This document shows, piece after piece, positions 37,001 to 51,809 of a stretch of 64,000 nucleotides of DNA. Source of the stretch: Rheinheimera lutimaris. Lineage in GTDB: Bacteria > Pseudomonadota > Gammaproteobacteria > Enterobacterales > Alteromonadaceae. Positions within the stretch are counted from its first letter, which is position 1, and each line of letters starts with the position of its first letter. Position numbers and translations under genes: made by a program. Under the pieces are notes generated by a model. That model did not search any database and was not told the origin of the DNA. It worked only from the letters and a program-made list of their open reading frames with translations. Location: assembly GCF_013283795.1 (NCBI RefSeq), contig NZ_JABSOD010000003.1:124001-188000 (forward strand). The letters are read 5' to 3'.

Positions 37001-38046
37001 TACTGAATGCCTAAGATCGCTTCGTCGGCGTCTGCATCACCCTTGGTGTACAAATCATCCAGCACTTTGGCCGCTTGTACCCAGGTAGCGCTAAGTAGTT
37101 TGTTGTCGGCATCAAACGCTGCTAACGCCAGTTGGTTTTTAACCATGGCTTTGGCTTCATCTGCGCTGAAGTTGGCGCTGAACGCCGGGGCATCGGCCAA
37201 ATGCGGTACTAACGCTTTTTGCTGCTCTGTCAGCTCAACCGGCGCCAGCTCCATGCTGTCGCCGCTGAGGTTGCCATCGCGGCCAATTGCTAATCCGGCA
37301 TCTGCATCAAAGTACAGTTTTACCGGGCTGGTAGCAGCAATGCCACTGTTCCAGACAAAGGTATTCTGGTCAAGCCAATGCGCGGCAGCGCCCTGAATAC
37401 TTACTCCCAGTGACTCGATAGGAAATTCAAACACGCCGGTAACACCGGAAAAAATCCAGTTCATCCGCGCAAATTTTGGATGATCCTGTGATAGCGGCAT
37501 TTGCATATCAGTGCCGGGATCTTTACCGGCATCATCAGTACCAATGTGCACAATAAAGTTGCCGCAGGCGCCCGGCGTTCCGGCATAACCCGGTTTTAAC
37601 TGTAAAATCCAGTAAGCACCGTAGTTTGGGTCAATACCGTTATGCACCAAACCGGTTTCCCAGCCCGGCGCAACTGATGACGGGGCATACGCATCACAGG
37701 TTTCATTGTTCCAGGTATGTAAGCGGTAACCGTCATACACCCCATCCTGCGGCCGTTTATAAAACAGCACTGCTTCGTTAGCGCCAGCCATCACCACCGG
37801 CGCCGGCGCTTTCGGATTTTCACCTATTTCACAGCTTTCATTGTTAGCGGTAGGCACCTGCGGCGCCGGGCAGAATATCGGCGGCGGATCGATACATTCG
37901 ATACCGGCTGCATCGGGGATCAGCGGCACATCACAGCTTAACAGTACTTCGCCAGGTGCAGTGCTGTCAGCACCACCACAGGCACTCAGCAGCTGGGCGG
38001 CCAGCAATAACGAACCGAGCTGCAGCATTTTTTTAGTAGTAGACAT
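34066..38046 (-). CDS. pulA: Pullulanase-type alpha-1,6-glucosidase lipoprotein with two C-terminal starch-binding modules
   Basis: A 1326-residue GH13 debranching enzyme. Signal peptide and lipobox LLSACG (Cys23) anchor it to a membrane. The N-terminal PUD/CBM regions (about 60-330) and a CBM48-like domain precede the barrel. Catalytic regions: DVVYNH (about 635), FRFDVMGHH with the nucleophile Asp (about 707), the acid Glu in YGEGWNF (about 740) and SKHDNE (about 846). Two tandem repeats at about 1108-1215 and 1220-1326, each beginning YVKGDMN/YLKGDMN, resemble SusE/SusF-type starch-binding domains. It lies 23 nt after the upstream TonB receptor gene, in one operon. Confidence 0.93.
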   Translation of the reverse strand: MSTTKKMLQLGSLLLAAQLLSACGGADSTAPGEVLLSCDVPLIPDAAGIECIDPPPIFCPAPQVPTANNESCEIGENPKAPAPVVMAGANEAVLFYKRPQDGVYDGYRLHTWNNETCDAYAPSSVAPGWETGLVHNGIDPNYGAYWILQLKPGYAGTPGACGNFIVHIGTDDAGKDPGTDMQMPLSQDHPKFARMNWIFSGVTGVFEFPIESLGVSIQGAAAHWLDQNTFVWNSGIAATSPVKLYFDADAGLAIGRDGNLSGDSMELAPVELTEQQKALVPHLADAPAFSANFSADEAKAMVKNQLALAAFDADNKLLSATWVQAAKVLDDLYTKGDADADEAILGIQYQDGGITANVWAPTARDVQLKVYDSGRNLTATHAMILDPATGIWQYSGSDALDRQFYRYEVTVYHPLTRKVETIEATDPYSVSVAINGRYSQFVNLNDDDLKPAGWDERTVPAVAKPEDIVIYEGHVRDFSIRDQSVSAANRGKYLAFTETESLPVKHLISLAQHGLTHFHLLPLNDQANIKENAASRIDLSDTVGKLCGLKADAPVCGNTDANATLLSVLKGYSAFGEKAQELVEALRSIDGFNWGYDPQHFIAPEGSYASNPDGVARITEVRAMNKALNDLGLRTVLDVVYNHTSASGLSTTSVFDKIVPGYYHRYNETTGAIERSTCCENTATEHRMFEKFMQDSMVILARDFGFNDFRFDVMGHHPKDSILATRDVVRSVAPDVYFYGEGWNFEEVADNRLFVQAKQQDMAGTGVGTFNDRLRDEVRGATLFSGKATEDNLHKQDIIRIGLAGTLKDYVLESYQGIAGPASSYTWNGQAAGYAEKPADIINYVSKHDNETLWDKLQYGLATSLTAAERVRAQNIAIAIPLMSQGIPFLQMGGDFLRSKSMDRDSYDAGDWFNFVDFTMQSNNFGVGLPLAEKNKDSWEGIAKILLDPNAKPEPQQISFASEVFKEFLSIRAGSPLFRLATAQEVIDRVGFHNTGKNQTQGLIVMSIDDGTGLTDLDPSFDALVVVINGSAQEHTHTIPTAAGFDLHPIQQASVDSNVSTAAFVAGVDEGSFTVPAYSMAVFVKVQGATQGAGLAADATSGAPDIPPYEASTIYVKGDMNGWGAVDAMTYDGEGVYSLALDLAAGSYNFKVADADWNPLVFGAGGDGNSVALGAAKTLTNPGDNLNVVIPNTATYVFTLDANNKAAPVLTVQELPPYGVGVTVYLKGDMNANPWSNDDPMTYIGGNVYQIDTLLDEVKQYGFKFADANWGTVNYGAEVGAMTLDTPKALEDEGGNLSFNVTEVATYRFSVDATVPAAPVMTITKL

Positions 38047-38069: not shown

Positions 38070-40958
38070 TTAAAAGGTATACACCGCGCCAAGGTAGAGC
38101 TGGCGGCCAAAGAACTGTATGGTGCCGGTTTGCGCCTTGTCACCGAAGTAACTCTTAGTGGGTTCATCTGTCAGGTTATTCACCTGAAACAGCAGCTTGA
38201 AATGGTCGTTCAGGTCATACGAGGCTTGCATATCCACCACGGTTTCGCTGTCGAAATTAGTGATTTGCTCATCAATACCTACCTGCGACGACACAAACGG
38301 TGAGCGGTAGCGCGCGCTGACCCGGGTGTCAAAGCCGCGATAGTTCCAAAATACCGTGCCGGTAAATACGTCTTGCGACAACCCTTCAAAACTGGTTTCA
38401 ATGCTGGCACCGCCGAGGTTGTTAACCAGGCTCACTTCACTTTCGGTATAGGAATAACTGCCCTGCACGCCAAGCCCGGACCAGATCTCAGGCAAGGTAT
38501 CGAATACTTTGGTAAAGGCCAGCTCAGCGCCACGGATATAACCGCCCTCGCCGTTATTTACCGCAGTAGAGAAGGCACCGTTAAAGGTGGCGCGCGGAAT
38601 GCCGTCTTCATCTATTACTTCAAGCGGTACATCGTAGCCGGCGGCGGCAAAATCAAACTGTTGAATGGTAAAATCGTTTACAAAAGACTTAATATCTTTA
38701 TAAAACAACGCAAAGGCTATGGCGCCGGAGGGCAGATAATACTCGTAGGATAAATCATACTGTACCGCCTCAAACGGCCGTAAAAACGGGCTGTTTGAGC
38801 TGTTACCGCTGATTTCGCCGTCATCACTGATGGTAATTGACGTATTAGATGCCAGCCGGTTAATGGGTGGCCGCGACATCACCTTGGCAGCAGCAAAGCG
38901 GATTTGTGTGTTATCGGTCAGGCCAAAATTAAGGTTCAGCTGTGGCAGTACGTCGGTGTATTTTTCCCCCAAAACACCGGGTGCATAGCGGGTGTTTACC
39001 AGGCCGGCGTCATCGGTAATATTTTGCGCACCGCGCAGCGGGTCGCTGTTGACATCGGCAAGGTTGGTGGCACTTTGGTCGGTTTGCACTACGCGTACAC
39101 CAATATTACCGGTTAAGGCTATGCCAAATAACTCCGCATCCAGGTTAGCCATTACATAACCGGCCAGCACATCTTCATACACTTCGCCGCTTTCCAGTAG
39201 GGTCCAGCTGGTGTTGGGGCCGCTGTCAGCCAACTGCTCTTCCACTAAATCAGGGTTACCGGCGCCCCAGGTTTGCACCGGTTGTGGTATACCTTGCGGA
39301 AACCAGGCAGCCAGGGCTTTATCCAGGTCAACCGACAAATACGACGGATAGGCAGCAAAATCGCCTTTAAAATCGACAACCTCTGTCATATCAGCGGTAA
39401 GACGCAGTGGTGGCTGGGTGGTAAGAAAAGCACCGTCGCTGCCGTATTCAAAAACAGAGCGATCATTTTTATAAGTGCGCTCAGAGTAGCGCACACCTGC
39501 TTCAAGTGAGGCCACTACCGGCATATCCAGCAGCCAATTGGCATCGAAACGCACAGCGTTTACTTCGTCCTCGTTAACATAGGGGTAAATGCCATACTTA
39601 CTGACCATCACCTTGTCGACATCTGAAAATGCGGCCGCCTGGTTAAAACCAACGCCGGGCAGGTTCAGATTATTCAGCTGATAGGTTATGGACACATTGG
39701 TATCCAGCAGCGGTGTTTCTGCCGTGGCGTCTTGCGCGACCAATGCCCACAGCAGGCCGTTACGGAAATTACTTTTGGCGCTGGAATGCGATACATCAAA
39801 GGATAAATTTACCGTGTCGCTGACATCCCAATCGGCATTAATGCCGTAACTGCGCACTTCGTCGTAGTCGCGGTTGTCATCGTTAACAATCTCTACCCGG
39901 GTAAAGCTGGTCGTGGTGCGGTTAAAGGTGCCGCCAATTACCGAACTGCCGTTTAATACCGGGTTACCCAGTGCCGCAGTGGGGCCACCAAATTTAACCC
40001 GATAACCGCGGGCAAAGGCTTCTTTGTCAAATTTAGACAAAAAGGCATCGGCTTTTAAAGTAAACGCATCGTGTGGTGTCCATTCCAGCGCGGCCATATA
40101 GCCGTCACGGGTCTCTTCACCGCCTTTATGCTGCAGTTCAAAACCTTCACTGATGTATTCATTGATACCGTCATCGTTAGTGTCTTTTTCGCCGTTGTAA
40201 GCCAAACCGACAAACTGGGTGGCAACACTGGGCTGAAATAAGCGGGCGTAGCCGGCAGCAAAGCCGAGGGTATCGTTAAGAAACTTGCCCTGATATGACA
40301 AGCTGAAACGATGACCGGCACTGGTACCATCCGGCACTTCGTCAGCACGGTCGTTATACATGCGACGGGCATTAACGGTAAAAGTATGTTGTTTTTCGTT
40401 GCGCAGCGGGCTGGCGGTTTGCAGCTCTACCGTACCGGCTACACCGCCTTCAATCAGCGACGCCTTGGGCGATTTATATACTGCCGCAGAATTAATTAAC
40501 TCAGATGGATACTGGTCAAATTCAATATTACGCTTGCCGCTGGTGGACACCTGCTCACGGCCGTTAAGCGTAGAAAATACAAAACCGCCGGACATACCGC
40601 GGATGTTAATCTCCGCCGCCTGACCACCGGTACGTACTGCTGAAATACCCGGCAAGCGGGTTAATGCATCGGCCATTGATACATCCGGCAGCGCGCCTAA
40701 ATCATCGGCTGAGATGGTTTCTGATACCGTATCACCAAAGCGCTTGGCATCCAGTGAACGGAACAGGCTGCTGGCAAAGCCGCGCACCTGAATAACCTCG
40801 ACACTGTCCAGTGCCGCATCAGCTACTGTGCTGTCGGTTGAGATTTGTTGATTTGCTGGTTGTGGCGTTTGCTCTGCTGTTTGTGCAACAGCAGAGCATA
40901 CCAGACTACTTACGCCTGCCATAGCAAGCGTAAGCAGACTAAGCTTAAACTTATTCAT
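38070..40958 (-). CDS. TonB-dependent receptor for alpha-glucans (maltodextrin type)
   Basis: A 962-residue outer membrane transporter of the large carbohydrate-type family. Signal peptide 1-25 (MNKFKLSLLTLAMAGVSS); TonB-box-like VEVIQVRGF at about 53-61; plug with DDLGALPDVSMADALTRLPG and INIRGMSGGFVFSTLNGREQV; barrel ending YLGAVYTF. It is the first gene of an operon with pullulanase, so maltooligosaccharides from pullulan or starch are the likely cargo. A palindromic operator lies 120-133 nt upstream. It is a paralogue of the receptor at 45998-48826. Confidence 0.9.
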   Translation of the reverse strand: MNKFKLSLLTLAMAGVSSLVCSAVAQTAEQTPQPANQQISTDSTVADAALDSVEVIQVRGFASSLFRSLDAKRFGDTVSETISADDLGALPDVSMADALTRLPGISAVRTGGQAAEINIRGMSGGFVFSTLNGREQVSTSGKRNIEFDQYPSELINSAAVYKSPKASLIEGGVAGTVELQTASPLRNEKQHTFTVNARRMYNDRADEVPDGTSAGHRFSLSYQGKFLNDTLGFAAGYARLFQPSVATQFVGLAYNGEKDTNDDGINEYISEGFELQHKGGEETRDGYMAALEWTPHDAFTLKADAFLSKFDKEAFARGYRVKFGGPTAALGNPVLNGSSVIGGTFNRTTTSFTRVEIVNDDNRDYDEVRSYGINADWDVSDTVNLSFDVSHSSAKSNFRNGLLWALVAQDATAETPLLDTNVSITYQLNNLNLPGVGFNQAAAFSDVDKVMVSKYGIYPYVNEDEVNAVRFDANWLLDMPVVASLEAGVRYSERTYKNDRSVFEYGSDGAFLTTQPPLRLTADMTEVVDFKGDFAAYPSYLSVDLDKALAAWFPQGIPQPVQTWGAGNPDLVEEQLADSGPNTSWTLLESGEVYEDVLAGYVMANLDAELFGIALTGNIGVRVVQTDQSATNLADVNSDPLRGAQNITDDAGLVNTRYAPGVLGEKYTDVLPQLNLNFGLTDNTQIRFAAAKVMSRPPINRLASNTSITISDDGEISGNSSNSPFLRPFEAVQYDLSYEYYLPSGAIAFALFYKDIKSFVNDFTIQQFDFAAAGYDVPLEVIDEDGIPRATFNGAFSTAVNNGEGGYIRGAELAFTKVFDTLPEIWSGLGVQGSYSYTESEVSLVNNLGGASIETSFEGLSQDVFTGTVFWNYRGFDTRVSARYRSPFVSSQVGIDEQITNFDSETVVDMQASYDLNDHFKLLFQVNNLTDEPTKSYFGDKAQTGTIQFFGRQLYLGAVYTF

Positions 40959-41261
40959 GCCCCTGTTTCCCCGTATGTTTTTATTTTAGTGGTTGCGCAT
41001 TCCATGCAGCAGCATGAGAGTTGCAGCCTGCTTTTTAAGCAGTTCATTTATTAACCTAAATGGAACGGGGTGCAATATGAATACGTATTCAGCTGCGCCA
41101 AAGCGGCGCAAAGCTGACAAAGCGGCACCATAACAGTGCAATACAACTAACGCGCTTTATCCGGCTAACGCATTACGCTATTGTAAGCGGCAACAGCGGC
41201 GCACTTTAAACCACAACTAACATCCAACACTCAGCGCCATATTTGCACGAAGGGATCAGCA
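40959..41261. other. Divergent regulatory region
   Basis: 303 nt without a gene, between the maltodextrin receptor (minus) and the gene at 41262 (plus). It holds the palindrome at 41078-41091 and, toward the receptor, TTGCAC and a TAATAA element about 16 nt apart that could be its promoter. AGGGA at 41251-41255 is the ribosome-binding site of the plus-strand gene. Confidence 0.5.
41078..41091. promoter_or_regulatory. Palindromic operator 1 (TGAATACGTATTCA)
   Basis: A perfect 14-bp palindrome with a central CG, the geometry of LacI-family operators. Its centre is 126 nt upstream of the maltodextrin receptor start. The same 14 bases recur at 48945-48958, and a two-base variant at 49119-49132. 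Confidence 0.75.
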
Positions 41262-42581
41262 TTGCGTAACCAGGCCAGTAACAGCCCCGCCGACAGCGTA
41301 TTTATGCGCGAATTAAAACGTGTCCTTAACAGCCTGAGCACGCCGGCATCGGCGTTATCACTGGTAAGTATCGCCGCCGACTTTTTCCGCGCCACACACA
41401 GTAGCGTAACCCCGCCGACAGCCATGGCTGAACTGAGCTTTCTGGCAGAAAAGATATTGCAGTTAACCGAAGGGCAAAATAACGCCGAAACCCTGACCCG
41501 CTCGGCGCGGTTACTCGGCATTTTGCAATTAACCGTGCCCAAGTCCAAGCGGCGCTGGCGCGAGGTACAATTCGGCTACAAAGCCCTGTATCGCGCTGCG
41601 CTGTCGCTGCGTTTGTTGCAGCATATGCTGACGCAGCAATTGCTGAACGATCCCTGGATAGAGCAACACTATGCACAGCGCGATGCAAAAGACCCGCAGT
41701 GCCCGTTTCGGTTAAATGTGCAGTTACCTCTGGTAATGGCGGTGTTATTGCTGGATGTGGGAATGCTGCACCCCAAAGCGCTTGCCGTGTTAGCCGGCAA
41801 TAACGGCACCCTGGACCCGCAGCGCGCACTGCAATCAGAAGAGCGACACCAGTTACTGCAACTGAGCACCACGGCGCGGCAGCACTTTTTCTCACTGGCG
41901 CTGGCCGTAGTACGTTTTCGCAGTAACAATAAGCAGGAACAACAACTGGATATGGCGCAGCAGCAACAACGGTTAGACTTTACCGAACGCCTGCTGGCGG
42001 CAGCTGGAGATCCTAACAGTGCGGTGGGCAGCCTGTTAAAAGTACCACAGGTATACAGCTCAATTGTGTTGCCTGGCCGCCAGCGCTTCGCCTATGAAGC
42101 CCTACCCAAAGCCACTTTGTTGCTAAAAGACGCGGTAAAACGCGGCGAGTTAAATGCACTGTATACCGGCCATTTGCTGAAAATTACCGGCGTGTTTCCG
42201 CAAGGTTTTGGCGTGGCATTTATCCCGGCGCAAACTGATCTGAGCGTACAGGAAAAATACGAATTAGCTATTGTAAATCAGTTATATCCGGCTAAAGCAG
42301 AAGAGCCGTTATGCCGGGTAGTCAGCCGTAATTTGCAGTACCGCCGCGGTGGCCATAACAGCTGTATCAGCGTAGCAAATAATCTGTATTTTAAGCCGGC
42401 GCGTGACCGCTTGGCCATTATGCCTCCACAACGTTTACAGGAGATTCTGGCCGGGTTGAGCGCCGATTTTGAGCCCGGCCAACTGCGGCGTTTTATTCCG
42501 CGCTGCTGGCACCCGGAGCAATTTTTCAGCCAGAGTGAACACCAAAACCTGTGGAATAACGCACCACAGCGGCAGAATTGA
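41262..42581 (+). CDS. Unrecognised cytoplasmic protein, possibly a degenerate HD-GYP domain
   Basis: A 439-residue soluble, Leu/Gln/Arg-rich protein without signal peptide or membrane span. A stretch at about 160-205 (AVLLLDVGMLHPKALAVLAG, then GTLDPQRALQSEERHQLLQLS) resembles the HDxGK...KPGxLTxEE region of HD-GYP phosphodiesterases, but the HD metal ligands are replaced, so it would be inactive. I am not sure of this likeness. The start is TTG 41262 with AGGGA 6 nt upstream; ATG 41304 is the alternative. It is divergent from the maltodextrin receptor and shares its operator region. Confidence 0.6.
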   Translation: MRNQASNSPADSVFMRELKRVLNSLSTPASALSLVSIAADFFRATHSSVTPPTAMAELSFLAEKILQLTEGQNNAETLTRSARLLGILQLTVPKSKRRWREVQFGYKALYRAALSLRLLQHMLTQQLLNDPWIEQHYAQRDAKDPQCPFRLNVQLPLVMAVLLLDVGMLHPKALAVLAGNNGTLDPQRALQSEERHQLLQLSTTARQHFFSLALAVVRFRSNNKQEQQLDMAQQQQRLDFTERLLAAAGDPNSAVGSLLKVPQVYSSIVLPGRQRFAYEALPKATLLLKDAVKRGELNALYTGHLLKITGVFPQGFGVAFIPAQTDLSVQEKYELAIVNQLYPAKAEEPLCRVVSRNLQYRRGGHNSCISVANNLYFKPARDRLAIMPPQRLQEILAGLSADFEPGQLRRFIPRCWHPEQFFSQSEHQNLWNNAPQRQN

Positions 42582-42600
42582 ACGTACTTTACGTTACATA

Positions 42601-42958
42601 TTACCGTTGCAAAAACTGCTGATATAACGGCAACTGAGCCGCTGTGCTGCTTATTATCGCTTTTAAATCAGCCAGAAAACCGTTTAGCTGGCTGTCAGTT
42701 AAGCTATCGGCCAGAGGGTGATAATGTTGTGGTCGTAAATGCTGCCCCAACATAACCTGCTGCCAGGCCACTTCAGTAAACAGCTCATCTTGCTGACGAA
42801 ATACCGCCCCTGACTGGCGAAACAATTCAATGCGTTGTGCCAGTGAGTCCGGCAACGCCATGGTGCGGCAATGCTGCCACTATGGGCAATAGCACGGGTG
42901 TAGGGCATAACCGGCAAGGTAGCGGCTGTTGGTACTTTTGCTAACACAGCTATCTGTT
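42601..42958 (-). pseudogene. Relic of a third flavin-dependent halogenase
   Basis: Directly after the stop of the second halogenase, a frame reads QIAVLAKV...PYTRAIAHSG, matching halogenase 1 (QPYTRSIAHATG). At about 42870-42885 it jumps, with a frame change, to CRTMALPDSLAQRIELF, matching the C-terminal CREMAVPDSLTERIALF, and continues to a normal end. Relative to halogenase 1 the N-terminal about 250 codons and about 145 internal codons are gone. No functional enzyme can result; the last 86 codons (from ATG 42861) are still open. Confidence 0.85.
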
Positions 42959-44461
42959 TTAGCGCGGTTTATTTAACGGATAATGCTGGCTGCACATGCG
43001 GTTAAAGTGGCCAACGTCATCAATACGGCGTAAAAAGGACTGAACCTCCGGTTTCGTGCTATCTGCCGGCACTAATTGAGACGGATAAATACCGTAGCCA
43101 GAAAATAAACAGTGCCATGAGTTGATACTGTAGTAACTGTCCAGCTTATTGGCTGTCAGGTAAGGGCCAATATCCTCTCTGCTTAGCCAGGCCTGGGTTA
43201 AGCCTTTTAGGTGCAGCGGTAAGTCTTCATTGGCAGCATTATCACGCCAGTATTGGCTATCAGTTCTGTTATTTAAACGATAATGCCCGACAATATAATC
43301 GCGTATGCCCTCAAAGCGGGTGTTAATGCGCTGATTAAACTCTGGCTGCAGGGCGTCACTGTAATTGCCTTTGACCAAACAATCCGCAAACATCTCTACG
43401 GTGGTTTGTACCAGATGCAAAGCCGTTGCCTCCAGCGGCTCAATAAAGCCCTGCGACAACCCCACAGCAAGGCAGTTTTTGTACCAGTGCTGCTCCAGCC
43501 TGCCAACTTTCATTTTCAGATGTCTTGCCACAACACTGTCATCAACGCCAAGGTGAGCTCTGAGCTCCTGTTCTGCCTGTTCAGCACTACAGTATTTCGA
43601 GCTGTATACATAGCCATTACCCACACGGCTGGTCAGTGGAATACGCCATGCCCAGCCATTACTCAGAGCGGTGGATTGCGTCATCAGTTTTTCATCAGGC
43701 AGACAAGGCGTTTGCATAACCACGGCAGCATCATTAAACAAGTTTGCGCTGTAACTGATAAACTTAACCCCCAGTGCCTGGCTGATTAAGCGGGCAGAAA
43801 AGCCTGTACAGTCAACAAAAAAGTCTGCTTCAAGCACACCATGTTGCGCCGACACCAGGGCACTGATACTGCCATCTTCAGCTATAACAACGTCACTGAC
43901 ACTGAACTCGCGGTAAGTTACCCCCAGGCTTTTAGCATAAGTTGCTAGAAACCGGCCTAATAACGTGGAGTCGAAATGGTAGCCATACTCCACACTAAAC
44001 GGGAAAGACTCATCAGCTAAAGGCTGGCGGCCTTGCTGTGCCAGGGCAGCATTAAGGAAATAGTGATCTGGGTTTGCATTGACATCCAGCCCCAGACGAC
44101 GGTAATAACAACTATGAATAAACACATCCTGGGTGTGTAAATCTGTCTGGGCGACAAAGGGATGAAAATAACGGCTGTATCCCGGTACGTCTGTCCAGCC
44201 ATTAAACTCAATACCCAGTTTGTAAGTGGCATTGCAGGCACTCATCCACTCAGCTTCAGGGATACCTAAGGTATCAAATAACCCACGCAGTTGTGGCGTT
44301 GAGCCCTCACCCACACCAATAGTAGCTATTTCAGGTGCGCCGACAAGCTCTATGGTGATATCAGCTGCCAGGTGCTTTCTTAACAAACAAGCCGTTATCC
44401 AACCGGCTGAGCCGCCGCCTACAATCACGACTTTATTGATTTTTTTTGGCGCTGATACCAT
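42959..44461 (-). CDS. Flavin-dependent tryptophan-halogenase family protein 2
   Basis: A 500-residue protein of the PrnA-like family. FAD motif GGGSAGW (about residues 15-21), active-site Lys in ATYKLGIEF (about 81), halogenase motif GWAWRIPL (WxWxIP) and the catalytic Glu in FIEPLEATALHL are all present, so it should form and use hypohalous acid. I start at ATG 44461 (AGGAAAG 8 nt upstream); a longer frame from 44515 lies inside halogenase 1. It overlaps halogenase 1 by 29 nt. Substrate is unknown; family members beside TonB receptors often prefer indoles over tryptophan. Confidence 0.88.
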   Translation of the reverse strand: MVSAPKKINKVVIVGGGSAGWITACLLRKHLAADITIELVGAPEIATIGVGEGSTPQLRGLFDTLGIPEAEWMSACNATYKLGIEFNGWTDVPGYSRYFHPFVAQTDLHTQDVFIHSCYYRRLGLDVNANPDHYFLNAALAQQGRQPLADESFPFSVEYGYHFDSTLLGRFLATYAKSLGVTYREFSVSDVVIAEDGSISALVSAQHGVLEADFFVDCTGFSARLISQALGVKFISYSANLFNDAAVVMQTPCLPDEKLMTQSTALSNGWAWRIPLTSRVGNGYVYSSKYCSAEQAEQELRAHLGVDDSVVARHLKMKVGRLEQHWYKNCLAVGLSQGFIEPLEATALHLVQTTVEMFADCLVKGNYSDALQPEFNQRINTRFEGIRDYIVGHYRLNNRTDSQYWRDNAANEDLPLHLKGLTQAWLSREDIGPYLTANKLDSYYSINSWHCLFSGYGIYPSQLVPADSTKPEVQSFLRRIDDVGHFNRMCSQHYPLNKPR

Positions 44462-45935
44462 GCAGATAACTTTCCTGTGTCGGTAATTGACTAACATAAC
44501 CTGAGAATACAGCACTGATATTACTCATAAAATCACTGCATTCTGCTTCAGGCAACGTATTGGCTAACGGGCTGTAACTGTGCGGCATAATACCCTGCCC
44601 CAATAACACCTGATACCAGCCCATTTCTGAGAACAGCTCATCACTGCGGCGAAAAACCCGGCCGGAGTCAGCAAAAAGCGCAATCCGTTCGGTCAGTGAG
44701 TCCGGCACTGCCATCTCCCGACACCTTTTCCAGAATGGCTCGCTGCGCTGGTTAAGATGATAGTGCAGAATAATAAAGTCGCGGATAGCTTCTATTTCTA
44801 AATCGGCCTGGCGGTTAAATTCATCAGCCAGGCAGCTATCTGCCGGGTTTTGAGGAAATAATTTAAGAAAACGCCCTATACCCGATTGGATCAAATGTAA
44901 ACTGGTAGACTCCAGCGGCTCTAAAAACCCGCTGGCCAACCCCAACGCCAGACAGTTTTTATGCCACTGTTTTTTACGTCGGCCTGTGGTAAACCGCAAA
45001 AATTTGGGGTCAGACCTTTCGCCTTCAGGCAAATGTTGCAGCAAGGTGTCAAGTGCCTGCTCCTGCTGCATAAAGGCGCTACTGTACACCATGCCATTGC
45101 CTGTGCGGCTTTGCAGCGGTATATGCCACTGCCAGCCCGTAGCATGCGCTATCGAGCGCGTGTAAGGTTGTGTGGTATTACCCTGTCTGGTTTGTATTGC
45201 AATGGCACTGTCAGCCGGTAGCCAGTGCTGCCAGCTCTCGTATCCTGTATTAAGCGCCTCTTCAATCAATAAGCCGCGAAAGCCGCTACAATCAATAAAA
45301 AAGTCGGCTGCCACAACCTGATTATCATCAAGTATCAGATCGCGGATGTTGCCGCTTGACGGGCAGATATTAACCCGTGAAATTTTCGCATCAATGCTGT
45401 GTACGCCTAACTTGACCGCGTAATCACGCAGTAAGCGGGCATAAGCAGAGGCGTCAAAGTGATAGGCATAACTTAGTCCCGGAATAGTGGTTCCGGGCAA
45501 TGTTTTAGCAGGCGAAAACTTATTCGCTTTTGCCGCCAGAAAATTTAACGAATAGCGCCAATAGTCTGAGGCGTTTTGCGGTGATTGCCTGAGCCAATAA
45601 TTAATAAAATGGGTTAAGCCTACATTACTGCCAACATCACCAAAAGCATGCATATACTGGCTGGACGTCTGCCCCCAGCCTGCAAACTCAATACCCAGCT
45701 TAATCGTGGCATCCGTCTGCTGAATAAAATACCGCTCATCTATACCCAGCAACTGGTTAAAACTCTGAATGGGCGGAATAGTGGCTTCGCCTACACCGAC
45801 AGTGCCAATATCAGTAGACTCAACCAGAGTTAACCTGATCTTGTCTTTAAACACTTTGGCAAGAGCTGATGCCACCATCCAGCCAGCACTGCCGCCGCCT
45901 GCGATTACTATATGACGAATACCATTCTGGTGCAT
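44433..45935 (-). CDS. Flavin-dependent tryptophan-halogenase family protein 1
   Basis: A 500-residue PrnA-like halogenase. FAD motif GGGSAGW (about 13-19), GEATIPPI, active-site Lys in ATIKLGIEF (about 79), WxWxIP in GWQWHIPL (about 264-270) and Glu in FLEPLESTSLHL (about 338) are intact, close to PrnA K79 and E346. Start ATG with AGGGAC upstream. It follows a TonB receptor gene, separated by a terminator, and is translationally coupled to halogenase 2. It needs a flavin reductase, which is not encoded here. Cytoplasmic. Confidence 0.9.
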   Translation of the reverse strand: MHQNGIRHIVIAGGGSAGWMVASALAKVFKDKIRLTLVESTDIGTVGVGEATIPPIQSFNQLLGIDERYFIQQTDATIKLGIEFAGWGQTSSQYMHAFGDVGSNVGLTHFINYWLRQSPQNASDYWRYSLNFLAAKANKFSPAKTLPGTTIPGLSYAYHFDASAYARLLRDYAVKLGVHSIDAKISRVNICPSSGNIRDLILDDNQVVAADFFIDCSGFRGLLIEEALNTGYESWQHWLPADSAIAIQTRQGNTTQPYTRSIAHATGWQWHIPLQSRTGNGMVYSSAFMQQEQALDTLLQHLPEGERSDPKFLRFTTGRRKKQWHKNCLALGLASGFLEPLESTSLHLIQSGIGRFLKLFPQNPADSCLADEFNRQADLEIEAIRDFIILHYHLNQRSEPFWKRCREMAVPDSLTERIALFADSGRVFRRSDELFSEMGWYQVLLGQGIMPHSYSPLANTLPEAECSDFMSNISAVFSGYVSQLPTQESYLHGISAKKNQ

Positions 45936-45948
45936 ATTTTGTCCCTAT

Positions 45949-45975
45949 AAAAAAGCCCCTGACAACAGGGGCTTT
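45949..45975 (-). terminator. Intrinsic terminator between the TonB receptor and halogenase genes
   Basis: On the minus strand AAGCCCCTG-TTGT-CAGGGGCTT is followed by TTTT. It lies 20-60 nt after the receptor stop and ends 14 nt before the halogenase 1 start, so it should lower or gate halogenase transcription. Confidence 0.88.
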
Positions 45976-45997
45976 GTAATGTCAGACAATATTAAGG

Positions 45998-48826
45998 TTA
46001 GAACTTATAACCAAAGCCAAGCATAAAGTTACGGCCATATCTTTGATAGTCTTGCGCGCCAATAACTTGGCCGGTTTCACCATCAACAAAGTTGGTAACA
46101 AAAGGTTCGTCGGTAATATTCTGTACCTGGAATGTCACGCTCAGTCCTTTCAGAGCATCGATAGACGATTCTGAAAAATCATAGCCCAGCTGTGCGTCCC
46201 ACAAGGTTTCAGACGCTGCTGTTCTGGTATCCAAATTAGCAGTCTGATTACGCACTGCGCCCTGGTACTCTGAACGGTAGTTCATGCTGGTACGGAATTG
46301 AAAACCTGCTTTTTCATAGTACACAGTGAAATTGTATACTTTGTCAGATAAGCCAGGGATCTCCTGCTGCATACCTTTTACATCTACTTCTGAATCCAGG
46401 AAAGTAGCACTTAACACCGCACCAAAACCATCCAATGCTTCAGTCAGAACATTAAATGGCACCACTGCTGTTAACTCAGCACCACTCACTTTGGCATCAC
46501 CAACGTTGTCCGGTATGGTATTAACACCCAGGTTGGTAATTGGCACATCTTCCGGGTTAGGCGTGTTAAAGTCTGAGAAGTCAAAAATCGTATCGTTATT
46601 GGCAACCCAGTCTTTTATGTCTTTATGGAACACAGCCGCAGCCACATAGCCTTCACTGGTATAGTAGTATTCGTAAGACAGATCAAACTGATCGGCAACG
46701 ATAGGTTTTAGTGACGGATTGCCGCTACCAGAACTCCATGGTGACGTGGTTAGATCGTCAGGGTTAAACACGCCAGGGTTGTTGCGTCCGCGATCAAAAC
46801 CATAGCTAAAGCTTGAGTTCATTTGATCCATACGTGGGCGTGCCACAGTGCGTGCTGCGCCAAAACGCAATTGCTGCTCATCAGTTACTTTTAATACCAG
46901 GTTTAAACTTGGTAATACATTGCTGTAGCTGTCACCCTGCGTTGTTGGATCAATATTTAACCCACCTTCAGGGCGTGAACTGACCTGAAAACCATCCGAG
47001 CTTTGGTCTGTGTATACATATTGTACGCCGATGTTACCGTATAACGGTAGATCAAACACATAGCTGCTGATATCTGCTTTTACGTAAGTAGTATAAATAT
47101 CTTCAAATACTGTCCAGGTACCACGCCATTTATCAGGCACTGTGTCGCCCTGCACTACAGAGTCATATACACCATCGCGATACATTGCCAGTGAGTCATA
47201 GGCAATCATATTACCCATACCGAGGTATCCCAGTGACACATTGCCCAGGTAATATTTGTCGTCAATAGGTAAGGTCGAATTTACGTCGCCGGCCACATAA
47301 TTAGGTACGCGTAAGTATTCACCGTAGTCTACTTTCGACTTTTCACGTTTGCTGTAGTTAACACCTACCTCTACAGAACTGAAGAAGTCATTTTCCAGCA
47401 ACCGGTTTGCCGCAAGCTTGAAGGTGGTCATTTCGTCTTTAGTTTCAGGCGTCAGTAAGTTACCGTCCTGACCATCAACGCCCACTTCACCTACACCCCA
47501 GTTTCTTGCTGCACCTAACTCAAATAATGCACGGTCTGAGTAATCCAGAGAAGGGGTAAAAGTTGCACCGGTAAGGCTGTCGTTCATTTCAACGATAATA
47601 TCGTCACCCACGCCCTGGCCTGCATTGCCACCACGACCGGTTGTGGCATAACTTTCCATAACCCACAGCTTACGGTCGGCTTTTGAATAGCTTAAATCGG
47701 CTTCAAGAGTCCAGTCAGCCAACTGATATTCAACATTTGCACCGAAAGACGTCAGTTCTGCCTGACGGAAGTTTACGTCGTTACGTACTATGCCTTTAAC
47801 ATCGTTAGCACGGAAACGTGTTGCCACACCATTACGCTCTTCCAGCACTTCAATAGTGGACGAACCATCGTCACGACCATAACCAATTGGTAACTCAACA
47901 CCACGTAAGATTTGTTTGTCTTCAAAATCCACGTACATGGCATCAAATGTCAGATGTAAATCTTTATTTGGCGCAAATTCCAGTACACCAAGCACCGAAT
48001 CCCGGGTCAGTTCAGAAGAGCGAACATATGGCTTAGCACCGCCCAGCCTGCGAATACCATCTTCGTTGCGATCGTAGTTCCAGGCGTGCCAGCGCTCTTC
48101 CTGGTTGGGTGACTGCATATGTGCGTAGGCCAACGCCACACCCACTTTGCCGTCATTAAACTGGTCGATATAACCGATAGAGCCACGTTTACCCTGATCA
48201 TCCATATCTGGATTAACCGCTTCTAAACCATTTTTCTCAAAACGCACGTTCGCATTAATGATGCGTTCGCTTTTGTCTAACGGACGTACTGAGCGTAAAT
48301 CAACAGTACCGCCAATCCCCTGAGTGATAAGTGATGCATCCGGCGTTTTGTATACCACAACTTCACTGATAACCTCTGATGGGTACAAATCAAATTCAAC
48401 CCCACGGTTATCACCGATAGAAACCTGCTCGCGGCCGTTAAATGTAGTGGTATTAAAATCACCGCCCATACCACGAACTGAAACCAGGCTGGCACGGCCA
48501 TCCAAACGCTGTGCTGACAAGCCCGGTAAGCGTGCTATAGATTCAGCAATACTGGAATCGGGCAGCTTGCCAATATCTTCAGCAGAAACAGAATCTACAA
48601 TGCTGTTAGAGTATTGCTTGGTGTTAATTGACTCGGCTACAGAGCGCCTAAAGCCTTTTATTTCAATAACTTCTACGCTTGCGGCAGCCTTTGCTTTCTC
48701 TCTGGCTTCTGCTGGCGACTCGCGTTGTTCTGTGTCAGCCGATGTTTCTTGGGCCGCAATGCTGTAGCTGCTCAACCCGACCGTTGCTAAAGCAACCGTC
48801 AGCATACTGAGTTTAAATTTAGTCAT
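45998..48826 (-). CDS. TonB-dependent receptor, carbohydrate type, heading the halogenase operon
   Basis: A 942-residue outer membrane transporter. Signal peptide MTKFKLSMLTVALATVGLSS...; TonB-box-like VEVIEIKGF at about 52-60; plug with AEDIGKLPDSSIAESIARLPG and VSVRGMGGDFNTTTFNGREQV; barrel ending MLGFGYKF. ATG 48826 is chosen over 48835 and 48877 because it aligns with the paralogue at 40958 (MNKFKLS) and puts the operator at the same distance (125 versus 126 nt). Cargo is probably a glucan or related oligosaccharide, inferred from the paralogue and malQ. Confidence 0.88.
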   Translation of the reverse strand: MTKFKLSMLTVALATVGLSSYSIAAQETSADTEQRESPAEAREKAKAAASVEVIEIKGFRRSVAESINTKQYSNSIVDSVSAEDIGKLPDSSIAESIARLPGLSAQRLDGRASLVSVRGMGGDFNTTTFNGREQVSIGDNRGVEFDLYPSEVISEVVVYKTPDASLITQGIGGTVDLRSVRPLDKSERIINANVRFEKNGLEAVNPDMDDQGKRGSIGYIDQFNDGKVGVALAYAHMQSPNQEERWHAWNYDRNEDGIRRLGGAKPYVRSSELTRDSVLGVLEFAPNKDLHLTFDAMYVDFEDKQILRGVELPIGYGRDDGSSTIEVLEERNGVATRFRANDVKGIVRNDVNFRQAELTSFGANVEYQLADWTLEADLSYSKADRKLWVMESYATTGRGGNAGQGVGDDIIVEMNDSLTGATFTPSLDYSDRALFELGAARNWGVGEVGVDGQDGNLLTPETKDEMTTFKLAANRLLENDFFSSVEVGVNYSKREKSKVDYGEYLRVPNYVAGDVNSTLPIDDKYYLGNVSLGYLGMGNMIAYDSLAMYRDGVYDSVVQGDTVPDKWRGTWTVFEDIYTTYVKADISSYVFDLPLYGNIGVQYVYTDQSSDGFQVSSRPEGGLNIDPTTQGDSYSNVLPSLNLVLKVTDEQQLRFGAARTVARPRMDQMNSSFSYGFDRGRNNPGVFNPDDLTTSPWSSGSGNPSLKPIVADQFDLSYEYYYTSEGYVAAAVFHKDIKDWVANNDTIFDFSDFNTPNPEDVPITNLGVNTIPDNVGDAKVSGAELTAVVPFNVLTEALDGFGAVLSATFLDSEVDVKGMQQEIPGLSDKVYNFTVYYEKAGFQFRTSMNYRSEYQGAVRNQTANLDTRTAASETLWDAQLGYDFSESSIDALKGLSVTFQVQNITDEPFVTNFVDGETGQVIGAQDYQRYGRNFMLGFGYKF

Positions 48827-48944
48827 GTCCTTCATCCCCGGTGTGTTATTTGTGTCGTCTGCCAGCTGTAAGCGCAACTGTTGCAGTACAACCAGACTTT
48901 TGTCTAAGGCTATTTATTAAACTTATTAGGTCAACAGCTCAATA

Positions 48945-48958
48945 TGAATACGTATTCA
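48945..48958. promoter_or_regulatory. Palindromic operator 2 (TGAATACGTATTCA)
   Basis: Identical in all 14 bases to operator 1 and extended by two more symmetric bases per side (TATGAATACGTATTCATA). Its centre is 125 nt upstream of the second TonB receptor start. Confidence 0.75.
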
Positions 48959-49118
48959 TAATTGCTAAATCGCACAAAAGCAGCGCATTGTTTCAATTTA
49001 ATGCACTAACGCAGTGCAAAACTCGCTTTCGTCTGAAACACCATATTTTCTTAGATATACCGCTTAGTTGTAGCAGAGTGGAGAGAAGATACAGAGCTGG
49101 TTTTAGTGATATTTTCAA

Positions 49119-49132
49119 TGCATACGTATGCA
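49119..49132. promoter_or_regulatory. Palindromic operator 3 (TGCATACGTATGCA)
   Basis: A perfect palindrome differing from operators 1 and 2 by one symmetric base pair change (GAAT to GCAT). It lies 103-116 nt upstream of the AraC-type gene and malQ. Confidence 0.6.
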
Positions 49133-49234
49133 GCAGGTTTAATAATTGTACAAGGCTGATTTATGCTTGCACCAGTATATGGCAGCCGGTAGCAAATATG
49201 TGGATCTTGCTTTGCTGCCGCGCCGGAGCACATT

Positions 49235-49684
49235 ATGACAACCAGAAGCATTAAGCACTGCACTGCTGCTAAGCAGAGCGCACAGAGCATTGCAGCTACG
49301 TCGCAGCTATTGGCAATGCTGCGCAGCTATATCATTGATTGCTTACCGCGGGCACCGCGTTTATCCGATGCTGCTGATGTCTTGCATATCAGTAGCAGAA
49401 CCCTGCAACGGTTGTTGCAACAACAGGGTAGCAGCTTTCGCTCACTGGTTACTGACTGCCGGCATCGGCTGGCACAGCAATATTTACATGACCACAGCCT
49501 GAGCTTGCAGCAAATTGCTTATCAGTTAGGGTTTGAAGAGCAAAGCAGTTTTCAAAAGGCATTTAAATGCTGGCAAGGTTGCTCACCGGGCGCATTTCGC
49601 CAACACAAGCTGCCGCAAGCGGGCAGGACACATCATTTTTCCGCGCACAGCGCGCTGCTACAGGTGAATTATGGAATTAATTAA
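49235..49684 (+). CDS. Short AraC-family regulator (DNA-binding domain only)
   Basis: A 149-residue protein. Residues about 30-135 hold the double helix-turn-helix of AraC/XylS proteins (LSDAADVLHISSRTLQRLLQ and LSLQQIAYQLGFEEQSSFQKAFKCWQG). The usual effector domain of about 150 residues is absent and no open frame upstream encodes one, so it is either a MarA/SoxS-like compact regulator or a truncated gene. It overlaps the start of malQ by 14 nt, so it is translated with MalQ and may control alpha-glucan genes. Confidence 0.78.
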   Translation: MTTRSIKHCTAAKQSAQSIAATSQLLAMLRSYIIDCLPRAPRLSDAADVLHISSRTLQRLLQQQGSSFRSLVTDCRHRLAQQYLHDHSLSLQQIAYQLGFEEQSSFQKAFKCWQGCSPGAFRQHKLPQAGRTHHFSAHSALLQVNYGIN

Positions 49685-51809
49685 GCAACTCGCCGCGTTG
49701 GCGGGTCTGCAAGACAGCTACGTGCATGCCCAGGGCCATACTGAGCATGTCAGCCTGGAAAAACAGCAGGCCATACTAGCCGCCATGGGCTTTGATCTGA
49801 GCTCTGACAACAGCATACAACAGCATATTGCTGCTCTGACAGAGCAGCCCTGGCTGGAGGTGATTGCGCCGGTAACGGTTTGCCGCCAGGGCGAGCTACT
49901 GCGCTTTCGCCTGCAGCAGTTACAACATGAAGCCATAAGCGATTGGCAGTGGCATATTGTTACCGAAGAGCAGCAGCAATTCAGCGGTAATATCACCATT
50001 GCCGCGAAAGACATTGTTGAACAACGGACTACCGGCAAAGGCGAGATACTGGCCGCAGAGCTGACTTTAGAGCTGAGCCTGCCATTGGGTTACCATCAAC
50101 TGAGTCTGAGCAACGGCACACAGAGCTATCAGCAACAGCTGATTATCACACCGCAACGCTGCTTCCAGTTGCATGACAAAGCGGTGCTGCACAAAACCTT
50201 TGGCCCGGCCATTCAGTTATATGCGCTAAAGTCTCAGCGAAACTGGGGTATCGGGGATTTTATCGACCTGCAGCAGATGATTGCACCGTTGGCGGCGCAG
50301 GGTTGTGATTTTATCGGTTTAAACCCTTTGCATGCTTTGTATCCGGAGCTACCGCAAGATTGCAGCCCTTACAGCCCGAACAGCCGGCTGTGGTTGAATA
50401 CCGAATATGTTGCGCTGGAACATACAGAAGAATATCGTGAATGTGCCGCAGCACAACAACGCTTTGCCACAGAAAACTTTCAACAACGCTTACAGCAGTT
50501 GCGCAATTGTTCTGATGTAGATTACATCGGTGTAGCTGCGCTGAAAAAAGACATTTCTGTGTTGTTATTTCAGCAGTTTAAGCAACAACATCTGGCGAAA
50601 AATACGCCTCGTGCAGCAGAGTTTCAACGCTTTGTCAGCGACAGTGGGATAAGTTTGCACCAATTGGCTATTCATCAGGTATTGCAAGGTGAGTTATTTG
50701 CCCGCGATTGGAGTATGGCTGCCTGGCAAAATTTCCCGCCGGAGCTGCGCGACCCGAACAGCAGCGCAGTAGCCGCTTTTGCCCGCGAACATACCGATGC
50801 GATACAACGTCAACTCTATCTGCAATGGCAAGCCCAACTGCAATTAGCCGATGTAAAGCGTCTGTGTCAACAACACGGCATGGCGATTGGTTTGTATTGC
50901 GATGTAGCTGTAGGTACCAGCCGTAGCAGCGCCGAGAGCTGGGGCGCACCGGAAGATTATCTGCTGGATTTAAGCGTAGGAGCACCGGCCGACATTATGG
51001 CGCCGAAAGGCCAAAACTGGGGCTTGCTGGCTTATAATCCGCAAACGTTACGGCAAAAAGCCTATCGGCCTTTCATTGAACTGATCCAAGCCAATATGCG
51101 CTATGCCGGCGCCTTGCGGCTGGATCACGTGATGGCGTTGCTGCGCCTGTGGTGCTGCCCTATCGGTGCCGATGCTACTGCCGGCACGTATATCCGCTTT
51201 CCGGCTGCCGATTTATTTGCCATTCTGGCACTGGAAAGCCAGCGCAACAGCTGTGTGGTTATCGGTGAAGACCTCGGCACCGTTCCGGTAGAGATCAGCC
51301 ATTTAATGGCACAATATCAGGTGTTGTCGTACCGTGTGTTTATGCTGGAACAAAAAGCCGGCAGTTATGACCACGCAGCGCAAACCTATCCTGAATTGGC
51401 ATTGGCAACTGTCAGCACCCACGATATGCCTACCTTAGTGGGTTATTGGCAGGAGCATGATTTAGCCCTGCGCCACAAGCTGGATTTATTCCCCAACCCA
51501 CAAGTAGCCGACAGCCTGTACCAGCTGCGCGCCGATGAAAAGCGCCTGATGGCAGAGCGTTTGCAATTAAGCGATGGTGACTACGCCCAACTGGTGCAGG
51601 CCAGCCATTTATTTACCGCACAACAACCGGCTAAACTACTGGCATTTCAGTTGGAAGATTTACTGTTGATGCACACGCCGGTGAATATCCCGGGTACCAG
51701 TACCGAGTACCCTAACTGGCGGCGTAAGCTGGAACATAATATCGATGAGATATTAACCCGCCCCGATGTACTGACGTTACTGGCGGCAATAAAAACCGCG
51801 CGACAATAA
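49671..51809 (+). CDS. malQ: 4-alpha-glucanotransferase (amylomaltase)
   Basis: A 712-residue GH77 enzyme (E. coli MalQ 694) that disproportionates maltooligosaccharides in the cytoplasm. N-terminal MalQ-specific domain (1-150); catalytic region with IQLYALKSQRNWGIGDF and SPYSPNSRLWLN; nucleophile Asp in LRLDHVMAL (about 483), acid Glu in VVIGEDLGTVP (about 530) and the transition-state Asp in STHDMPTLVGYW (about 583). It is in an operon with the short AraC regulator and processes products of the pullulanase/TonB receptor operon. Confidence 0.96.
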   Translation: MELIKQLAALAGLQDSYVHAQGHTEHVSLEKQQAILAAMGFDLSSDNSIQQHIAALTEQPWLEVIAPVTVCRQGELLRFRLQQLQHEAISDWQWHIVTEEQQQFSGNITIAAKDIVEQRTTGKGEILAAELTLELSLPLGYHQLSLSNGTQSYQQQLIITPQRCFQLHDKAVLHKTFGPAIQLYALKSQRNWGIGDFIDLQQMIAPLAAQGCDFIGLNPLHALYPELPQDCSPYSPNSRLWLNTEYVALEHTEEYRECAAAQQRFATENFQQRLQQLRNCSDVDYIGVAALKKDISVLLFQQFKQQHLAKNTPRAAEFQRFVSDSGISLHQLAIHQVLQGELFARDWSMAAWQNFPPELRDPNSSAVAAFAREHTDAIQRQLYLQWQAQLQLADVKRLCQQHGMAIGLYCDVAVGTSRSSAESWGAPEDYLLDLSVGAPADIMAPKGQNWGLLAYNPQTLRQKAYRPFIELIQANMRYAGALRLDHVMALLRLWCCPIGADATAGTYIRFPAADLFAILALESQRNSCVVIGEDLGTVPVEISHLMAQYQVLSYRVFMLEQKAGSYDHAAQTYPELALATVSTHDMPTLVGYWQEHDLALRHKLDLFPNPQVADSLYQLRADEKRLMAERLQLSDGDYAQLVQASHLFTAQQPAKLLAFQLEDLLLMHTPVNIPGTSTEYPNWRRKLEHNIDEILTRPDVLTLLAAIKTARQ

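Follow-up and report, generated by a model that had tools for sequence, protein, structure and literature searches.

We report that three copies of a 14-bp palindrome in a 64,000-nucleotide stretch of Rheinheimera lutimaris DNA (contig NZ_JABSOD010000003.1, positions 124,001 to 188,000, or G000:C23:124001-188000 in our numbering; hereafter the window) are very probably operators of a MalR-type regulator of the LacI family, which is the best explanation of the sequence evidence as a whole. The predicted regulon covers alpha-glucan genes and, as its new part, genes of flavin-dependent halogenases. The regulon itself extends a known one; the halogenase is what matters. The palindromes and the genes beside them are listed below (strand "." for the palindromes; G, C and L denote our genomes, contigs and loci; TBDT, TonB-dependent receptor; HTH, helix-turn-helix).

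41078..41091, strand.: putative MalR operator 1, TGAATACGTATTCA, before TBDT1-pulA; exact match; same word in 22/22 loci of the genus with an exact site before TBDT1
48945..48958, strand.: putative MalR operator 2, TGAATACGTATTCA, before TBDT2-Hal1-Hal2; exact match; same word in 23/23 loci of the genus with an exact site before TBDT2
49119..49132, strand.: putative MalR operator 3, TGCATACGTATGCA, before araC-malQ; exact match; same word in 18/18 araC and 5/5 malQ rows with an exact site
38070..40958, minus strand: TBDT1, TonB-dependent receptor of the TonB-Xanth-Caul type (Pfam, NCBIfam TIGR01782)
34066..38046, minus strand: pullulanase-type debranching enzyme (pulA), 23 nucleotides (nt) after TBDT1 and probably in one operon with it (Pfam, NCBIfam TIGR02103)
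45998..48826, minus strand: TBDT2, TonB-dependent receptor, cassette member (Pfam, TIGR01782)
44433..45935, minus strand: Hal1, flavin-dependent halogenase family, PF04820 (Pfam; PDB relatives 9luq, 6y1w, 6frl)
42959..44515, minus strand: Hal2, second flavin-dependent halogenase family protein (Pfam; PDB relatives 5hy5, 8fov)
49235..49684, plus strand: AraC-type HTH-only protein of 149 amino acids (Pfam HTH_18)
49671..51809, plus strand: MalQ, 4-alpha-glucanotransferase (Pfam GH77, TIGR00217)

A first-pass annotation had noticed the palindrome at these three promoter regions and likened it to LacI-family operators. The matches are exact, and all three show perfect symmetry, an even length and a central CG. 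Only the exact word is special. The next best matches in the window carry three mismatches, and the window count at up to three mismatches is not above chance (7 found, 10.4 expected). The annotation had suggested a genome-wide scan. In the whole genome (4,083,776 bases in 51 contigs), seven exact TGNATACGTATNCA sites were found against 0 for the reversed-pattern control, with 0.23 expected from independent bases. At up to two mismatches the genome count was about background (75 against 66). Three sites of the same genome carry one mismatch (C1:44928, C15:43997 and C28:16245). A chance origin of the palindromes is ruled out by the counts in the genome, the genus and the order.

All seven sites of the genome adjoin alpha-glucan genes. 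The three in the window stand before TBDT1-pullulanase, TBDT2-Hal1-Hal2 and araC-malQ, and the proposal of putative operators at genes for starch uptake, debranching, MalQ and the halogenases is supported by sequence. The other four are:

C23:26439: flanked by a chemoreceptor gene and a GH13-GH31 pair
C23:34418: upstream of a GH97 gene
C23:56278: between a sugar transporter gene and a divergent GH13 alpha-glucosidase gene
C51:78667: in the last codons of a phosphoglucomutase gene, before a glycogen/maltodextrin phosphorylase gene

At the phosphoglucomutase/phosphorylase site (L028:8668), the codons just before the operator vary at silent positions across 12 loci. The chemoreceptor gene (L024:6647-8440) diverges from the GH13-GH31 operon across a single operator in 9 rows, and may be a member of the regulon.

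The gene context was mapped for 145 of the 147 sites of 24 of the 28 site-bearing genomes of the genus (G026, G027, G029, G030 and two sites of G025 fall outside). For 131 of the mapped sites, a query gene of the alpha-glucan, receptor or chemoreceptor kind starts 40-165 nt downstream. The remaining 14 comprise seven before a GH13 gene, four before alpha-amylase genes and three with a receptor or transporter gene at 196-300 nt, of which one lies at a contig end. The seven GH13 genes (L208, L223, L230, L232, L235, L246 and L257) directly follow an asymmetric operator, the word that precedes GH97 in the window genome; the L208 gene, the only one of the seven scanned, is cyclomaltodextrinase-like. 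The alpha-amylase genes stand behind exact operators (L187:9226-11055, L228:2389-4218, L213:2773-4533 and L216:596-2359), and two of the four match a starch-binding domain. The window genome has no exact site at an alpha-amylase gene of this kind. Among the 145 mapped sites, none was found without an alpha-glucan, receptor or transporter gene nearby.

The first-pass annotation had also called for a single LacI-family maltose/starch regulator encoded outside the window. The genome holds eight LacI-type genes, and one of them, C23:65896-66924, is the likely gene for it. Its product has a LacI HTH and a sugar-binding domain. The gene lies on the same contig, 10 kb from the C23:56278 site and 57 kb left of the window. 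In the genus, 28 of 31 genomes carry 4-9 sites each (173 in total, against 2 control matches in total), and the same 28 genomes hold an ortholog of this LacI protein at 79-100% identity. The three genomes without sites are also without the ortholog and TBDT1. Among 295 genomes of the order, the ortholog was found in 51. Sites were present in 51/51 of these, and at least two sites in 50/51; any site was present in 17/244 genomes without the ortholog, and at least two in 4/244 (G213, with a 36% match, was counted as without ortholog). Several genera hold genomes of both kinds, and within them the sites and the ortholog are present or absent together. Neither site nor ortholog was found in G283, G310 and G320 (genus g19), G090 (g28), G151 (g3) and six g29 genomes, and likewise in G312 (g79), G293 (g91) and G059 (g17), whose congeners have both. 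In g19, G212 carries a single site but not the ortholog.

The named orthologs belong to Rheinheimera, Alishewanella, Arsukibacterium, Alkalimonas, Shewanella, Alteromonas, Paraglaciecola, Colwellia, Pseudoalteromonas and others. The best named relatives are from Rheinheimera, at 97% at best, in a list from which records very near the genome itself may be missing. An exact site lies 1.7 to 9.8 kb from the gene in 52 of 80 named ortholog loci (flanks of up to 10 kb). GVSQSTVSRAL and the hinge Leu are shared without variation by 80/80 named orthologs; the other seven LacI proteins of the genome differ in the GVSQSTVSRAL stretch. The protein of Shewanella sp. ANA-3 is 64% identical to the candidate over 340 residues, and we infer that it is the published Shewanella MalR. 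Because of this identity, and because the sites at GH97 and at GH13 with a divergent receptor gene are placed as in the published Shewanella regulon, the product of C23:65896-66924 is taken as the likely MalR. The regulon is taken to be the Shewanella MalR maltodextrin regulon, extended to Rheinheimera-type bacteria.

Hal1 and Hal2 align to solved halogenases along most of their length, with the flavin adenine dinucleotide (FAD)-binding GGGxAGW, the catalytic Lys, WxWxIP and the catalytic Glu region. With strict patterns, the 23 Hal1 proteins of the genus gave WxWxIP in 23/23, PLEST in 23/23, GGGxAGW in 19/23 and the Lys pattern in 20/23. The genome holds five full-length PF04820 matches, all on the window contig, and one fragment. 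An exact operator was found upstream of a TBDT2-type receptor and Hal1 relative in 20/20 test loci, against 0/20 paralog controls. The test loci were the 19 best-ranked places outside the genome itself (49-55% identity to Hal1) and G082 (50%); of the places ranked in between, six (G016, G189, G071, G091, G119 and G164) were skipped, and G243, G224 and G195 carry a flagged in-frame stop. The controls were chosen by hand among paralogs further down the ranking (46-50% identity), and 14 came from genomes already represented among the test loci. No operator, even with one mismatch, was detected within 5.6 kb of these 20 less similar halogenases. Coordinates alone suggest the same receptor-halogenase arrangement in G061, G234, G244, G301 and G036, with the site about 3.1 kb upstream of the halogenase. 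These results support a new assignment: the halogenases closest to Hal1 probably belong to the MalR regulon in several genera of the order. In the open literature searched, with most subscription journals and RegPrecise outside its cover, nothing on point was listed that links a halogenase to TonB receptors, LacI, Xanthomonas or maltose/starch, though the word halogenase occurs in three of the listed papers (PMC11337851, PMC7333567 and PMC12943173); absence from print is not claimed.

Other arrangements were also seen. In L303 (G292), a chemoreceptor-like gene sits between the receptor and the halogenase. A Hal2-like gene stands immediately behind the site in some loci of Alteromonas and Paraglaciecola (L145, L149, L153, L170 and L175). 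Past the right end of the window, L027 (C23:186000-199500) holds a LacI gene, a GPH-type transporter gene, GH1, DUF6445 and two more halogenase genes (C23:192748 and C23:196103), which suggests that other sugar loci have halogenases of their own.

The receptor and Hal1 behave as an exchangeable cassette under a kept operator, as judged from the following comparisons. Against the window, TBDT2 and Hal1 show 97-99% identity in L188 (G005) and L248 (G021) and 39-53% in the 11 other loci compared within the genus, while the adjoining MalQ keeps 66-83%. Over the 14 of 23 loci with all three proteins in full length, the identities of TBDT2 and Hal1 correlate at 0.965, and at 0.96 after MalQ is removed; each correlates with MalQ identity at only 0.31 and 0.32, respectively. 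The DNA of the promoter and signal peptide can remain alike where the body of the receptor has changed: the segment 48786-48960 is 93% identical over 175 nt with G003, whose receptor is 40% identical. A piece of another halogenase gene follows Hal2:

42606..42936, minus strand: remnant of an older halogenase gene, after Hal2; matches the 3' part of the G014-G016 Hal1 gene at 84-87% nt identity over 273-275 nt; its PF04820 fragment contains a stop

The 88% match of the window to G005 ends at 42935. On the plain reading, the present receptor-halogenase cassette took the place of an earlier one, of whose halogenase gene a piece remains.

Whether this distinct halogenase clade is a dedicated part of maltodextrin uptake in the order, switched on by MalR and inherited and exchanged with its own TonB-dependent receptor under an unchanging operator, we regard as evenly balanced. 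If it is, the halogenase would act on the receptor, on its cargo or on a molecule made during starch feeding, which would give it a physiological role. The tie of the Hal1 relatives to a single nutrient regulon supplies a concrete growth condition and a candidate partner protein with which halogenase function can be sought. Exchange of the receptor and the halogenase under a kept operator also illustrates clearly how parts can be swapped in nature while the switch in front of them stays the same.

The sites were gathered with exact words; any base was allowed at position 3, and it is A or C in every mapped site. The letter is fixed for each target across the genus. TGAATACGTATTCA was found at TBDT1 (22/22), TBDT2 (23/23) and the phosphorylase gene (12/12), and TGCATACGTATGCA at araC (18/18), malQ (5/5) and GH13a (23/23 distinct sites). 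The asymmetric word stands in one orientation each at the common transporter/GH13b site (16/16) and at GH97 (4/4).

Operators 2 and 3 lie in a single divergent intergenic region, 174 nt apart. Both exact words are present between TBDT2 and araC-malQ in 23 of the 24 mapped genomes (G004 is without the pair). The footprint was made from these 23 loci, which were chosen for holding both words, and its informative parts are the flanking columns and the position-3 letter. Outside the operators the columns average 65% conservation, and 54 of 338 are invariant. The spacing of the two operators is 152 to 190 nt across the 23 genomes, and DNA looping between them at a fixed helical phase is unsupported. 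The promoter elements are:

41070..41075, minus strand: -35-like TTGCAC, 2 nt from operator 1; TTGC there in 22/22 TBDT1 rows
41048..41053, minus strand: -10-like TAATAA, 24 nt from operator 1; TAATAA in 17 and CAATAA in 5 of 22 TBDT1 rows
48937..48942, minus strand: -35-like TTGAGC, 2 nt from operator 2; TTGAG unchanged across 23 genomes
48914..48919, minus strand: -10-like TAATAA, 25 nt from operator 2, in a 16-nt invariant block, the longest outside the operators (23 genomes)
49162..49167, plus strand: -10-like TATGCT, 29 nt from operator 3; TG.TTTATGCTTG invariant in 23 genomes

The annotation had taken the near-identical distance of the palindrome from the two receptor genes as an argument against chance. 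The distances were confirmed, with the operator centres 126.5 and 125.5 nt from the ATGs at 40958 (TBDT1) and 48826 (TBDT2). The argument drawn from them is weaker than supposed, since relatives show distances of 124-144 nt for TBDT2 (23 loci) and 118-142 nt for TBDT1 (21 of 22 loci; the 22nd gives 74 nt, a value extrapolated from an incomplete alignment), and since TBDT1 and TBDT2 are themselves paralogs with 33% identity over 500 residues.

At both receptor promoters 2 nt separate the operator from the -35 downstream of it, and the operator centre falls at about -43 to -45. This placement directly upstream of the -35 is clear by footprint for TBDT2 and consistent for TBDT1. The araC-malQ operator would be centred at about -48 if TATGCT is the -10. 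A wider test started from 246 oriented site-gene pairs, pared down to 78 and finally to 72 non-redundant ones; divergent sites entered with both their sides, at the cost of a diluted signal, and the genomes include relatives that do not count as independent. TTG 2 nt after the operator was found for 10/32 operators ending in TATTCA against 1/40 others (p 0.002), and TTG 5 nt after the operator for 14/40 operators ending in TATGCA against 5/32, which is not significant (p 0.11); both p values are from Fisher tests that ignore relatedness. Generic -10 hexamers at 28-29 nt followed 15/40 operators ending in TATGCA (null 1.49, 0/500 shuffles).

An operator next to the -35 is in the usual position for an activator. 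Given the 2-nt gap to the -35 at both receptor promoters, we lean towards MalR as an activator, which appears somewhat likelier than a repressor. For PckR, also of the LacI family, the mode was predicted from position (PMC4052901); such reasoning is suggestive and falls short of proof. Several points limit the lean to activation: it rests on position, the GH13a and GH97 promoters are not clear, and -10 hexamers at 24-25 nt are not enriched after operators ending in TATTCA (2/32, null 1.26). The receptor -10 in the TATTCA class is TAATAA or CAATAA.

The rival to activation, which leaves the operators and the regulator as they are, is a MalR that acts as a classical repressor. Sitting beside the -35, it would block the contacts of sigma region 4 or of the alpha subunit, and maltodextrin would release it. 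With the -35 2 nt away, a protein bound to the operator would extend to the edge of this element, and most sugar-specific LacI-family proteins are called repressors. Repressor operators often lie at the -10 or the transcription start; the operator at the footprinted receptor promoters covers neither, and its kept spacing to the -35 fits a contact of the protein with polymerase. PMC4052901 names repressors and also the dual regulators Cra and PckR. We consider repression a serious possibility, with a probability somewhat short of one half.

Under either mode, MalR from C23:65896-66924 would bind the seven operators at the alpha-glucan genes, and a ligand derived from maltodextrin would change its binding. 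The genes for the receptors, debranching, transfer and phosphorolysis would then switch together with the halogenases. Activation as the mode and the structure of the operons are likewise predictions.

A second alternative concerns the binder itself. The palindrome might be bound by another regulator inherited with the mal genes, such as a LacI paralog or the small AraC protein, since regulators that always travel with the mal locus cannot be told apart by co-occurrence. Here the points that weigh against MalR as the binder come together. The three genomes of the genus without sites have no match at all to the LacI query, and hence do not single out the candidate. G142 (3 sites) and G268 (2 sites) have only LacI proteins of at most 32% identity, and G047 and G088 carry 2 sites each without an ortholog. 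A single in-frame stop is flagged in the ortholog matches of G006 and G022 (genus) and G071 (order). No exact site was found within the flanks (up to 10 kb) in 28 of the 80 named loci, including that of ANA-3, in which 21 kb around the gene hold none. The search with exact words also makes 12 fixed bases identical by selection and misses weaker operators. G142 and G268 are genomes rich in other LacI proteins.

Opposed to another regulator is the presence of the MalR ortholog, at 79% identity or more, in all 28 site-bearing genomes of the genus. As for the AraC protein, araC was not found beside malQ in L182, L183 and L191-L193, which keep the site; malQ there directly follows the operator. The hinge Leu is in keeping with the LacI family. 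The central CG also fits this family (PMC4052901). We therefore think another binder improbable, and retain MalR. That the two receptor promoters are alike only through an old duplicated upstream region, the palindrome being functionless, would agree with the paralogy of TBDT1 and TBDT2 but is contradicted by the same word before unrelated genes (GH13, GH31, GH97, phosphorylase, transporter and alpha-amylase) and by the retention of both words in 23/24 genomes amid columns averaging 65%, and we give this explanation next to no credence.

One more gene of the window lies between the regions described:

41262..42581, plus strand: open reading frame ORF439, divergent from TBDT1; without Pfam or NCBIfam family

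A match to ORF439 was found in 12 of the 20 loci L182-L201, mostly adjoining TBDT1, and a relative lies about 4.5-5 kb from malR in L119, L123 and L128-L130. The AlphaFold model of ORF439 is poor (mean pLDDT 43). Its membership in the regulon is uncertain.

The palindromes agree with LacI-family operators as described by Ravcheev et al. 2014 (PMC4052901), which are even palindromes with a central CG; the position also falls within 140-30 bp upstream of the start, the range given there as covering more than 75% of LacI-family sites. Unlike the operators described there in general, those reported here keep the position-3 letter constant for each target gene across the genus.

In the Shewanella MalR regulon (Rodionov et al. 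2010, PMC2996990), sites are described before susB, before malT-cga and between the divergent ompMal and malZ-glcP. As in that regulon, the regulator here is of the LacI type, and sites stand at GH97, TBDT, GH13 and transporter genes. In Shewanella, an exact site before GH97 was found in five named loci (L159, L163, L166, L174 and L181). In genus g19, which we infer to be probably Shewanella, a GH13 gene and a receptor gene diverge across two sites, with a halogenase gene after the receptor (L298-L302, L304 and L306). In contrast to the regulon as given in that paper, pulA, araC-malQ, GH13-GH31 and the phosphorylase gene are also predicted members here. Its main text does not mention a halogenase; the supplements may hold the motif and the full gene list.

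The maltose CUT locus of Xanthomonas campestris and malA of Caulobacter (PMC1790865) resemble the present system in that a TonB-dependent maltodextrin receptor stands beside alpha-glucan enzymes and a maltose regulator, and the receptor gene of the Xanthomonas campestris/Caulobacter system is described as induced by maltose. The word halogenase occurs 0 times in the main text of that paper, whereas halogenases are placed in the regulon here.

Hal1 shares the FAD motif, the catalytic Lys and Glu regions and WxWxIP with BrvH and other flavin-dependent halogenases (PMC5945002; PDB 6frl, 6y1w and 9luq). A second halogenase gene adjoins that of BrvH, as Hal2 adjoins Hal1. According to the text of PMC5945002, the natural substrate of BrvH is not established. 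That text, in which "TonB" occurs 0 times, states no link of BrvH to a regulon or a transporter; for Hal1 and its closest relatives, such a link to a regulon is supported here.

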